Below, in pieces: positions 32,770 to 59,896 of a DNA stretch of 64,000 nt. The stretch comes from Nocardioides marmoribigeumensis (lineage in GTDB: Bacteria > Actinomycetota > Actinomycetes > Propionibacteriales > Nocardioidaceae): assembly GCF_031458325.1 (NCBI RefSeq), contig NZ_JAVDYG010000001.1, positions 806,001-870,000 on the forward strand, read 5' to 3'. Position 1 is the first letter of the stretch. Each line of letters begins with the position of its first letter. The notes under the pieces were generated by a model, which saw only the letters and a list, made by a program, of their open reading frames with translations, was not told where the DNA came from and searched no databases. Position numbers and translations under genes: made by a program.

Positions 32770-32790
32770 GGGGCGGTCGCGCGGGGTCCA

Positions 32791-32876
32791 GTTTCACTAG
32801 GTACCTAGTGACACCGACACTCCCCGAGCGAAGTTTCGCTCGGGAGGTGACAAAGTCACTAGGTACCTAGTGAAAC
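32791..32876. repeat. Palindromic repeat element, copy A (compact two-ended form)
   Basis: Two copies of the 18-bp palindrome TCACTAGGTACCTAGTGA (32794-32811 and 32856-32873) lie as outer arms, with GTTTCAC at the left edge and GTGAAAC at the right. Between them is a hairpin with a 10-bp stem at 32823-32844 (CCGAGCGAA, loop GT, TTCGCTCGG core). The whole element is an inverted repeat of about 86 bp. Related copies are at 46982 and 58926. It lies between the divergent hisD and Lon-domain genes. The right arm contains a GTG in frame with the Lon-domain gene, which is not its start. Confidence 0.9.
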
Positions 32877-32889
32877 CGTCCCCCCGGGC

Positions 32890-46968: not shown

Positions 46969-46981
46969 GCCGCTGGGTGCA

Positions 46982-47086
46982 GTTTCACTAGGTACCTAGT
47001 GACTTTGTCACTCCCCGAGCGAAACTTCGCTCGGGGAGTGCCAGTTTTCCCGCACCCCAGTCGTACGACGGCCAGCCGGCCCGGGC
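46982..47086. repeat. Palindromic repeat element, copy B (one-ended form)
   Basis: The 18-bp palindrome (46985-47002) is followed by a perfect 13-bp stem hairpin at 47011-47038 (loop AC). CGTACGACGG at 47062-47071 and CAGCCGGCCC come next, in the same order as in copy C. The second half is missing. It fills the gap between two convergent genes and could terminate both, but no T-run follows the hairpin. Confidence 0.88.
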
Positions 47087-57493: not shown

Positions 57494-58696
57494 CTACTTG
57501 AGGAACTCCGGCACGTCGAGCTCCTCGACGCGCGGGGTGCTGCGGACGGTCGCCGGCGCCGGGGCGGCCGGCCGCGGGGTCTCCGCGGGACGGCTGCTGG
57601 GCGCGGACTGGGCCGGACGCGCCGGCGCGGGCCGGTCGAAGGTGTCCCGACGCAGCGAGGCGATCGCGGAGCGGGTGTCGGCCTGGGTCTGGGCCGGCAC
57701 CGGCTCGCGGCGCGCCGCGCTCTGGTGGACCTCGTTGCGGCGCTTGGGCATGCCGCCGTCGAACCCGGCCGCGATGACGGTCACCCGGACCTCGTCACCC
57801 AGGGCGTCGTCGATGACGGCGCCGAAGATGATGTTGGCGTCGGCGTGGGCCGCCTGGGAGACCAGGGCCGCGGCCTCGTTGATCTCGAAGAGGCCGAGGT
57901 CGGAGCCGCCCGCGATGGACAGCAGCACGCCGTGGGCGCCCTCGATGGAGGCCTCGAGGAGCGGGCTGGACACCGCGGACTCCGCAGCGGCGACCGCGCG
58001 GTCCTCGCCACGGGCCGAGCCGATGCCCATGAGCGCCGAGCCGGCGTTCTGCATCACGGACTTGACGTCGGCGAAGTCGAGGTTGATCAGGCCGGGGGTG
58101 GTGATCAGGTCGGTGATGCCCGAGACGCCCTGGAGGAGCACCTGGTCGGCCTGCTTGAACGCGTCGAGCATCGAGACGCTGCGGTCGCTGATCGACAGCA
58201 GTCGGTCGTTGGGGATCACGATGAGGGTGTCGACCTCCTCGCGCAGGGCGTTGATGCCCTCCTCCGCCTGGTTGGCGCGACGCTTGCCCTCGAAGGCGAA
58301 CGGACGGGTGACCACACCGATGGTCAGCGCGCCGAGCGAGCGCGCGATGCGCGCCACGACCGGGGCGCCGCCGGTGCCGGTGCCGCCGCCCTCGCCGGCG
58401 GTGACGAAGACCATGTCGGCCCCCTTGAGGACCTCCTCGATCTCGTCGGAGTGGTCCTCGGCGGCCTTGCCGCCCACGTCGGGGTTGGCGCCGGCGCCGA
58501 GGCCGCGGGTGAGCTCACGGCCGATGTCGAGCTTGACGTCGGCGTCGCTCATCAGGAGCGCCTGCGCGTCGGTGTTGATGGCGATGAACTCCACGCCCTT
58601 CAACCCGACCTCGATCATGCGGTTGACGGCGTTGACACCACCGCCGCCGATACCGACGACCTTGATCACGGCCAGGTAGTTCTGCGGTGCTGCCAC
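57494..58696 (-). CDS. ftsZ: Cell division protein FtsZ
   Basis: FtsZ is the tubulin-like GTPase that forms the division ring. The tubulin signature [11 protein letters not shown] is near residue 105, and [12 protein letters not shown] and the T7 loop [11 protein letters not shown] are intact. A Pro/Ala-rich linker (about 320-385) leads to the C-terminal peptide [11 protein letters not shown], which binds SepF. It has 400 aa from the GTG at 58696, with GAGAGGG upstream; the longer open frame is leader sequence. A large repeat element separates it from ftsQ. Confidence 0.98.
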
Positions 58697-58796: not shown

Positions 58797-58830
58797 TTAA
58801 CCTTCAGGTAGAGGGTTAATGTTATGTCAA
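58797..58830 (-). promoter_or_regulatory. ftsZ promoter region with inverted repeat
   Basis: On the minus strand a consensus -35 TTGACA (58825-58830) precedes the inverted repeat TTAACC ... GGTTAA (58797-58819, 11-nt spacer). The exact -10 is unclear. The AT-rich patch stands out in this GC-rich sequence. It would give ftsZ its own promoter about 100-130 nt upstream of the start. Confidence 0.55.
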
Positions 58831-58925
58831 CCTGGCGCCTGCAGATGAAGGTAGGCCTTGAGGGTCGGTGCGCTGCGGCGACACGCAGGCGTGTCGACAA
58901 ATCGGCGAGGTTTTCGCGGGGTGCA

Positions 58926-59142
58926 GTTTCACTAGGTACCTAGTGACCTTGGTGCTTCCCGAGCGAAACTTCGCTCGGGAAGCGGCAGCTTTGCCGCGGC
59001 CCGGCCCGGCGTACGACGGTCAGCCGGCCCCGGCGCGCGCGTGCACCGGGCCGCGCGCGGCCGTCGTACGGCGGCAGAACTGGCACTCCCCCAGCGAAAC
59101 TTCGCTCGGGGAGCGACAACATCACTAGGTACCTAGTGAAAC
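58926..59142. repeat. Palindromic repeat element, copy C (long two-ended form)
   Basis: A 217-bp inverted structure. The left end has the 18-bp palindrome (58929-58946) and a perfect 14-bp stem hairpin (58954-58983); the right end has a 13-bp stem hairpin with one mismatch (59086-59113) and the palindrome (59122-59139). Inside, CGTACGACGG (59010-59019) pairs with CCGTCGTACG (59061-59070). The right end stops a few bases after the ftsQ stop codon. It lies between ftsQ and ftsZ on the same strand. Confidence 0.92.
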
Positions 59143-59149
59143 TGATCCC

Positions 59150-59896
59150 CTACGGCCGGATCGTCGGGCGGCCGGGGGCCGTGACGTCGTACGTCGAGCC
59201 CTTCTGCCGCAGGAGGACCGCGAGGACGCGGGCCTTGTCGCCGGACTGGTCGGCGCTGCCCCAGCTGACCCGGGCGCCGTTGCGCAGGTGGAGCACGATC
59301 GAGTCGATCGAGCGGACGTCGAGCGAGGTGGTGCGGCGCAGGATGTCGGCCGGGAGCGCGTTGACCACCGAGGCGGCCTCGGCGAGGGCGGCCGAGGAGG
59401 TGTCGGCCTGCATCTCGACGACGGGCAGGCCGGGCGGCTGGCGCCGGAAGTCCCGGAAGACCACGCCCTCGGAGTCCACGCCCTTCCAGGTGCCCTCCTT
59501 GTCGACCACGAGCACCGCGGTGCGCTCGATGACCCGGACCAGCACCTTGTCGGGCCACGAGCGGGACACGTCGGCGTCGAGGACGGGGGCGAGGTCCTCC
59601 ACGCGGGCCTCGATCGCGTCCAGGTCGACGGTGGCCAGGGGCACGCCGGTCGGCACCTTCGCGGCTGCGGCGACCTGGCGCGTGGTGAGCACCGAGACGC
59701 CGTCGACGCGGATGCCCTTGACCGCGAGCACGGAGGAGAAGAACACCAGCCAGACCAGGGCCCCGGCGGTGCCGAGGACCACCAGGGCGAGCAGCACGCG
59801 GCGCAGGGCCCGCCAGCGGCGTGCGCGGCGGATGCGGGCGAAGCGGTCCTCGGCGCGCGCCTCGGTCGGATCGTGGCGGTGGAGCAGGTCGGTCAC
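59150..59896 (-). CDS. ftsQ: Cell division protein FtsQ
   Basis: A 248-aa bitopic membrane protein: basic cytoplasmic N-terminus, one helix (about residues 33-53), a POTRA domain (SSVLAVKGIRVDG onward, about 55-125) and the FtsQ beta domain (VLVRVIERTAVLV, KGVDSEGVVF). It links FtsL/FtsB to the divisome. It lies 3 bp after murC. Confidence 0.94.
   Translation of the reverse strand: MTDLLHRHDPTEARAEDRFARIRRARRWRALRRVLLALVVLGTAGALVWLVFFSSVLAVKGIRVDGVSVLTTRQVAAAAKVPTGVPLATVDLDAIEARVEDLAPVLDADVSRSWPDKVLVRVIERTAVLVVDKEGTWKGVDSEGVVFRDFRRQPPGLPVVEMQADTSSAALAEAASVVNALPADILRRTTSLDVRSIDSIVLHLRNGARVSWGSADQSGDKARVLAVLLRQKGSTYDVTAPGRPTIRP

Follow-up and report, generated by a model that had tools for sequence, protein, structure and literature searches.

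The element between ftsQ and ftsZ

The window analyzed here is a 64-kb stretch (positions 806001-870000) of the single-contig, 4,440,796-base genome of Nocardioides marmoribigeumensis (G000). It contains two minus-strand ORFs that we take, from their translations, to be ftsZ (57494..58696, where the start at 58696 is our choice) and an ftsQ-like gene (59150..59896). In the gap between them, the initial annotation had described a 217-bp nested inverted repeat, and its arms, 18-mers and hairpins are all located at that place. In particular, the 80-nt arms (58918-58997 and 59071-59150) are 81% complementary, and the long element (58924..59144) consists of two inverted ends and an interior of about 100 bp without a gene. 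Both ends carry an outer palindrome, the exact 18-mer TCACTAGGTACCTAGTGA, at 58929..58946 on the left and, in identical form, at 59122..59139 on the right, about 10 bp from the stop codon of the ftsQ-like ORF. Inward of each palindrome lies the hairpin that had been claimed, with GCTTCCCGAGCGAA and TTCGCTCGGGAAGC forming a 14-bp stem on the left (58954..58983) and arms of the CTCCCCCAGCGAA / TTCGCTCGGGGAG type on the right (about 59086..59113). An inner CGTACGACGG inverted repeat (59006..59074) belongs to the interior and adjoins both ends; none of these element features is assigned a strand.

Folded as single-stranded DNA, the element has a z-score of -12.2, equaled by none of 200 shuffles, and the RNA of the other strand folds with a z-score of -13.8. 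A comparison of positions 58800-59250 with Rfam returned nothing near a gathering score. The annotation had also regarded ftsQ and ftsZ as a normally near-contiguous pair, which is incorrect: the gap is about 450 bp here and roughly 250-330 bp, as estimated from match coordinates, in three relatives (G096, G097 and G098). In the same three genomes the site is without the element, as the step between flanking matches is 68, 124 and 42 bp, respectively, against 255, 255 and 263 bp in the query.

Copies in this and other genomes

Exact 18-mers occur at five positions in the window (32794, 32856, 46985, 58929 and 59122), while 100 shuffles gave 0.00 on average, so the annotation was right to name three family members, including those that it placed at 32791 and 46982. 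The first of these two is a short double form (32789..32878, no assigned strand) between divergent genes, in which an 18-mer, a central hairpin and a second 18-mer repeat with a 62-bp period; the other is a single end (46980..47060, strand +) between convergent genes, composed of 18-mer, hairpin and tail. The expectation that the genome would hold many copies is likewise borne out, with 62 palindromes per strand in 4.44 Mb when up to 2 mismatches are allowed, 52 of them exact. Grouped by their coordinates, all 62 are accounted for by 22 short doubles (18-mers 62 bp apart, separated by 44 bp with the central hairpin), 4 wider inverted-end pairs and 10 single ends. By a plain count, a region of about 1.04 Mb (genome 2449907-3487886) has none of the 62 copies, which are spread elsewhere.

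Of 341 Nocardioidaceae genomes, three contain the exact 18-mer: G000, its congener G097 (16 copies, with additional, diverged copies of the ends) and G307 (28 copies), which we take to be Nocardioides speluncae YIM ART13. A scan of GTDB-type genomes, which may omit records very close to the window's genome, gave 24 stretches with the exact 18-mer, 23 from N. speluncae and one from Dysgonomonas (L136); the latter is taken as a chance occurrence, as no recognizable hairpin adjoins it. The exact 18-mer is absent from the viral contigs searched, and the short element has no blastn match at E <= 1e-5 in plasmid and phage collections. A more generic palindrome belonging to other lineages, TTTCACCGGNNNNCCGGTGAAA, counted alone, is present in 17 of 59 Nocardioides genomes with up to 48 copies, while its reversed control is found in none of the 59. 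Among the matches listed, the four bases at its center tend to be genome-specific.

Conservation of pairing

Short copies with the 62-bp spacing exist in all three genomes, and their central hairpins differ much from one genome to another. An alignment of 36 distinct short copies, selected for this spacing and for at most 3 mismatches per 18-mer (an N. speluncae pair spaced by 61 bp, L137, falls outside it), supports a three-hairpin structure in which 85.4% of cells pair, compared to 31.6-45.1% after shifting the partners by 1-3 columns. In the same copies, the covariation score is 0.115 versus 0.083 in shuffles, and the number of doubly changed cells is 54 versus 29.6, neither value being reached in 500 shuffles; two other counts, of pairs that show a double change (13; 170 of 500 shuffles) and of additional types of pair (31; 323 of 500), stay within the shuffled range. 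With two of the five measures within shuffled values and the copies preselected by 18-mer and spacing, the evidence for covariation is moderate. Thus, the earlier proposal that the arms vary under selection for their stems stands as to the pairing, which is kept rather than lost, and holds only moderately as to covariation. Gene conversion within palindromes could also be the source of the kept pairing.

A gene-bearing unit with the same ends

A family that is palindromic, dispersed, intergenic and arranged in paired inverted copies resembles the REP/REPIN repeats that depend on RAYT, an HUH tyrosine transposase, and a linked transposase or RAYT gene had been suggested as something to look for. 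The Y1_Tnp model (PF01797) has 0 matches in G000 at E <= 0.001, and the same search is positive in 5 of 14 control genomes; a RAYT-based family is thereby rejected for this genome, and we give that reading almost no credence. The gene that such ends do bracket, at another place in the genome, is AbiEi-type and nuclease-like.

This unit (L077, 333972-335194) contains what we read as a single minus-strand gene at 334066-335040, the only homologue of its kind in G000 at E <= 1e-10, situated between two inverted copies of the window's 18-mer and hairpin. Inverted ends are therefore common to gene-bearing and gene-less copies. The left ends of the unit and of the ftsQ-ftsZ element align over 60 nt with two differences, on the right, hairpin and palindrome align as well and differ at several positions, and the inner repeat aligns in part. 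Given this match, the ftsQ-ftsZ copy is probably a deletion derivative: it resembles an abbreviated form, without the gene, of a mobile element that at full length has one nuclease-like gene between two palindromic ends of this kind. In G097, a homologue with 65% identity has this 18-mer on both sides, with a mismatch in one of the copies.

The product of the L077 gene matches AbiEi_4 (E 1.4e-9), the only Pfam family above the cut-off, and the AbiEi models of PADLOC (best E 1.7e-17); the AbiEi_4 domain is found in 25 of 28 diverse homologues. Toward the C-terminus, the residues invariant in these 28 proteins include E216, R218, P229, P231, Q234, E259, F260, D261, G262, K265, E283 and R286, and D248 is at least 90% conserved. 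The resulting pattern, D..ExFDGxxK..EKxRE, suggests a putative nuclease-like active site of the PD-(D/E)XK type. In its residues it resembles the DUF559 and Vsr-like nucleases; the DUF559 model is matched at only E 0.054 and in 2 of the 28 homologues. A profile search of the PDB gave a best E of 1.6 and nothing significant, and NCBIfam gave no match at E <= 1. No Pfam transposase family is matched by the L077 product or its 28 relatives, so that the ends enclose no recognizable DDE transposase. A scan of viral contigs for the nuclease motif pattern returned 5 stretches, none of which was a homologue at E <= 1e-3.

The AbiEi matches would suit a type IV toxin-antitoxin or phage-defence gene whose flanking repeats are incidental, and the N-terminal AbiEi-type domain is indeed what the protein shares with the AbiEi antitoxins of the AbiE system. 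We consider this very improbable: the protein differs from them in its invariant nuclease-like C-terminal residues and its mobile-type ends, the end structure recurs at 91 of 98 loci, as detailed below, and no second gene that could be the AbiEii toxin was seen by eye among the ORFs inside the ends of the two units read (L077 and L115).

Linkage of the gene to its ends across Nocardioidaceae

Homologues of the gene were found in 75 of 110 Nocardioidaceae genomes (E <= 1e-25), and 98 loci were compared for inverted similarity between their two flanks, using 450 bp on each side. These comprise 91 of the 128 matches listed (the first 93 by rank, minus one at a contig start and one partial) and 7 more from the homologue search at E <= 1e-10; all were picked by the gene, and the flanks of the first 38 were viewed before the other 60 were fetched. 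Inverted flank similarity with a score of at least 40 is present at 91 of the 98 loci, compared to 29 of 980 mismatched flank pairs (which include related loci), 0 of 415 sliding stretches taken from the window and 0 of 98 loci when the right flank was reversed without complementing. The seven loci that fail are L155, whose 18-nt inverted pair lies beyond the flank tested, L157 and L161, into which a single match was split, and L158, L172, L175 and L209. Many of the ends share one architecture, an outer palindrome (often of the GGTTTCNC..GNGAAACC type) followed by an inner hairpin, while their sequences differ between lineages. A point against the proposed pairing of protein and palindrome is that N. 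speluncae has many exact 18-mers, yet its three homologues (E <= 1e-10) bear other or variant ends. Farther afield, few genomes have a homologue (7 of 198, G000 included, at E <= 1e-20), and 5 of 8 loci outside Nocardioidaceae, in six genomes, pass the flank test.

Further, the similarity of the ends rises with the identity of the proteins (rho 0.22 over 3815 pairs from different sites and genomes; 0 of 200 permutations), a correlation that is weak but consistent. A second end type, with a common CATGTAACGCG start unlike the main type, is seen at L159 (1246-1323) and L160 (1261-1335); at L159, one side has a 78-bp perfect palindrome.

Genes of other kinds are found between such ends as well. 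At L090 (3940-5420; genome 2091937-2093421), the family's inverted ends enclose the gene of a sigma-70-type factor (Pfam Sigma70_r4_2) followed by an ORF for what may be its anti-sigma factor, and at L114 (3000-4078, in G097) they enclose a methyltransferase gene beside an acetyl-CoA carboxylase-like gene. The G000 counterpart of the latter (L101, with the correspondence judged by eye) is a short gene-less double. The genes at L090 are possible passengers of the ends, and by extension the AbiEi/nuclease gene could itself be a passenger, with the short copies being MITEs that depend on a resident DDE transposase unrelated to it. That explanation appears to us distinctly unlikely, as at 91 of the 98 gene-selected loci, lineages with different ends still bracket this gene family, and as the target duplication usual for DDE elements is missing from the 22 short G000 copies compared.

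Specifically, the target duplications that the annotation had suggested looking for are not found at the 22 short G000 copies: apart from one 2-base match, none of the 22 has a duplication at the junction, and when the ends were allowed to shift, 21 of 100 shuffles were as good. Nor is there extra complementarity outside the ends (4.7 of 15, compared to 5.4 in shuffles).

Differences between sites and evidence on mobility

Presence, absence and replacement at corresponding sites are observed at several places besides ftsQ-ftsZ. In a convergent gap between ettA-like and thiolase-like genes, G000 has a gene-less pair of about 320 bp (L104, 3020-3350), G097 has a gene-bearing unit with the same 18-mer (L115, 1780-3050), and G096 has a gene-bearing unit with different ends (L153, 1315-2581). 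For the L077 unit, no clean empty site was found; its position in G096, G098 and G099 (L261, L262 and L265) is taken by another gene, which is about 1.2 kb long and by eye winged-helix/YcaQ-like. Because three relatives carry a different gene there, the L077 insertion came with loss or replacement.

When 96 homologue loci were clustered by site (L157 and L161 left out), 62 of them fell into 18 shared sites and the others into 34 single sites, and for 44 of the 62 the best-matching protein comes from the same site. The thiolase slot is occupied in 9 loci, with one element (L199) inverted relative to the others. A search of 98 genomes for this slot led to 20 regions, chosen among the matches listed and mostly for close flanks, so that their proportions are not an estimate of occupancy: 7 are empty, 2 have solo outer palindromes, 2 have elements, 8 have other DNA and 1 has another short hairpin. 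The 7 empty slots have 1-44 bp between flank matches and no complete palindrome of the family's kind, and the longest (G214) has a half-palindrome-like stretch. The other DNA is mostly gene-like by eye, with matching ends in 0 of the 8 regions. The slot is thus not reserved for this element but accepts DNA of many kinds. The two solo outer palindromes (L280 and L281, about 30 bp) look as if an element had been lost leaving one end; such remnants could be left by recombination between an element's two ends.

The proteins found in the thiolase slot do not form one clade (p-AU 1.2e-54), and those in a second slot likewise do not (p-AU 2.5e-4). At L167 and L187, a common flank of 1209 bp has 94% identity and the proteins are 44% identical. 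Mapped on a protein tree of 92 loci (L155, L158, L180 and L243 also left out), the site labels require 20 changes versus a minimum of 17 for 18 sites, and 11 of the 18 shared sites are single clades, which indicates that most copies stay put for long. Overall, these comparisons suggest that the family is mobile, and the element appears to move, but slowly.

Spread of this kind could also arise by homing, in which a site-specific endonuclease cuts empty alleles and repair copies the element in, with no action on its ends. The nuclease-like motif in a protein with no known transposase domain, the lack of target duplication and the repeated occupation of the same slots all fit such a process, which we regard as possible though on balance unlikely. 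Its difficulties are the 18 shared and 34 single sites among the 96 loci, together with about 36 dispersed elements in G000, which are many for simple homing, and the position of the palindromes inside the element, given that the 7 empty sites have no complete palindrome and G214 only a half-like one.

Genomic context of the copies

Gene context was read from our own simple gene caller. In G000, 38 element groups lie between convergent (19), tandem (16) or divergent (3) genes, compared to 5 convergent, 44 tandem and 5 divergent gene pairs in the window. Counted from the distances, 34 of the 38 groups have, no more than 20 bp away, the stop codon of a gene that reads toward them, and for some of these the called ORF runs a little way into the palindrome; 10.9% of the intergenic bases in the window are equally near such a stop codon. 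Settling just after stop codons may reflect a choice of target or mere survival where little is harmed.

This placement, the excess near facing stop codons, the convergent half of the groups and the very stable folding are also what would be seen if the palindromes served to terminate transcription in both directions and either spread to gene ends or arose there, and the nuclease-like gene were only often flanked by them. We think this improbable, because the other DNA in the thiolase slot lacks matching ends, the two flanks of a homologue match far more often than mismatched pairs do, three groups are between divergent genes and three relatives have no copy at ftsQ-ftsZ. Termination may instead be a side effect that favors the survival of copies at gene-end sites.

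Proposed mechanism and relation to known systems

The explanation that we favor, and consider probable, is that the repeat is REP/MITE-like and spread by its own nuclease-type protein, the palindromes being both the ends of mobile elements and their short, non-autonomous form. At full length, such an element measures about 1.2 kb and comprises an outer palindrome, an inner hairpin, a tail, one gene and the same ends inverted. Its protein of about 300-330 aa combines an N-terminal AbiEi-type winged-helix domain with a C-terminal PD-(D/E)XK-like nuclease motif. A dimer of this protein would bind the outer palindrome of its own lineage through the winged-helix part, the C-terminal domain would cut at the element ends, and the element would then be moved, or copied through host repair. 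The gene-less forms, namely the double, the single end and the long ftsQ-ftsZ form, would be mobilized in trans. The ends, the copy number, the linkage of gene to ends and the presence, absence and replacement at sites are observed; we infer the nuclease activity, the dimer binding, the recognition of the palindrome and the role of this protein as the mover.

Insertion sequences and MITEs offer the general precedent of units of about 1.2 kb with one gene and inverted ends, accompanied by gene-less derivatives with the same ends. The Nocardioides family is alike in its size of about 1.2 kb, single gene, inverted ends and gene-less derivatives; it is unlike them in having neither a Pfam transposase nor a target duplication, and in that its ends are themselves palindromes. 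It fits no named family tested, in agreement with the annotation's statement that it matched no named mobile element.

In the available text of two accounts (PMC3733652, PMC8266576), bacterial palindromic repeats are tied to HUH (RAYT) transposases or have no assigned enzyme. The systems treated there (REP/REPIN with RAYT, or TnpA-REP, REPtrons and TIRtrons) resemble the present family in their short, dispersed, intergenic palindromes, often in inverted pairs. REPtrons and TIRtrons, moreover, have a gene flanked by its own repeats, and repeat and protein appear to co-vary (PMC3733652, PMC8266576, in the same text). In contrast to REP and RAYT, the search of G000 for an HUH/Y1 enzyme of the Nocardioides family was negative, and the family's linked protein would be AbiEi-type and PD-(D/E)XK-like; its ends are compounds of an outer palindrome and an inner hairpin, with tens of copies in G000. 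A REP tag of GTAG or CGTC at the foot of the palindrome is described in the available part of one account (PMC3733652). By eye, neither tag is at the foot of the outer palindrome, where the consensus is CAGTTTCACTAGG...GAAACYG; CGTC is present further inside the element (CCGTCGTACGG).

Among the titles and abstracts listed from the open-access literature, we recognized no description of the element and no link of AbiEi/DUF559 proteins to palindromic ends; subscription papers and preprints are mostly outside this literature, and an earlier description is possible. A bolder generalization, to which we give somewhat less than even confidence, is that these elements form a new transposon superfamily in many Nocardioidaceae and some other Actinomycetota. 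Its sole enzyme would be a winged-helix protein with a PD-(D/E)XK-like nuclease, its lineage-specific, hairpin-forming palindromes would have coevolved with that enzyme, it would leave no target duplication, and the short palindromes would be its non-autonomous parasites.

A repeat family is linked, at 91 of 98 loci, to a single-gene unit without a Pfam-recognized transposase, and DNA may be moving here without any familiar transposase. If the nuclease-like protein is the mover, its action would constitute a new transposition chemistry. If the proposal is true, the family would provide a natural series of matched protein and palindrome pairs for studies of DNA recognition, and would explain proteins whose sole Pfam match is an AbiEi antitoxin domain. 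The copies settle at gene ends, in this case between two cell-division genes.
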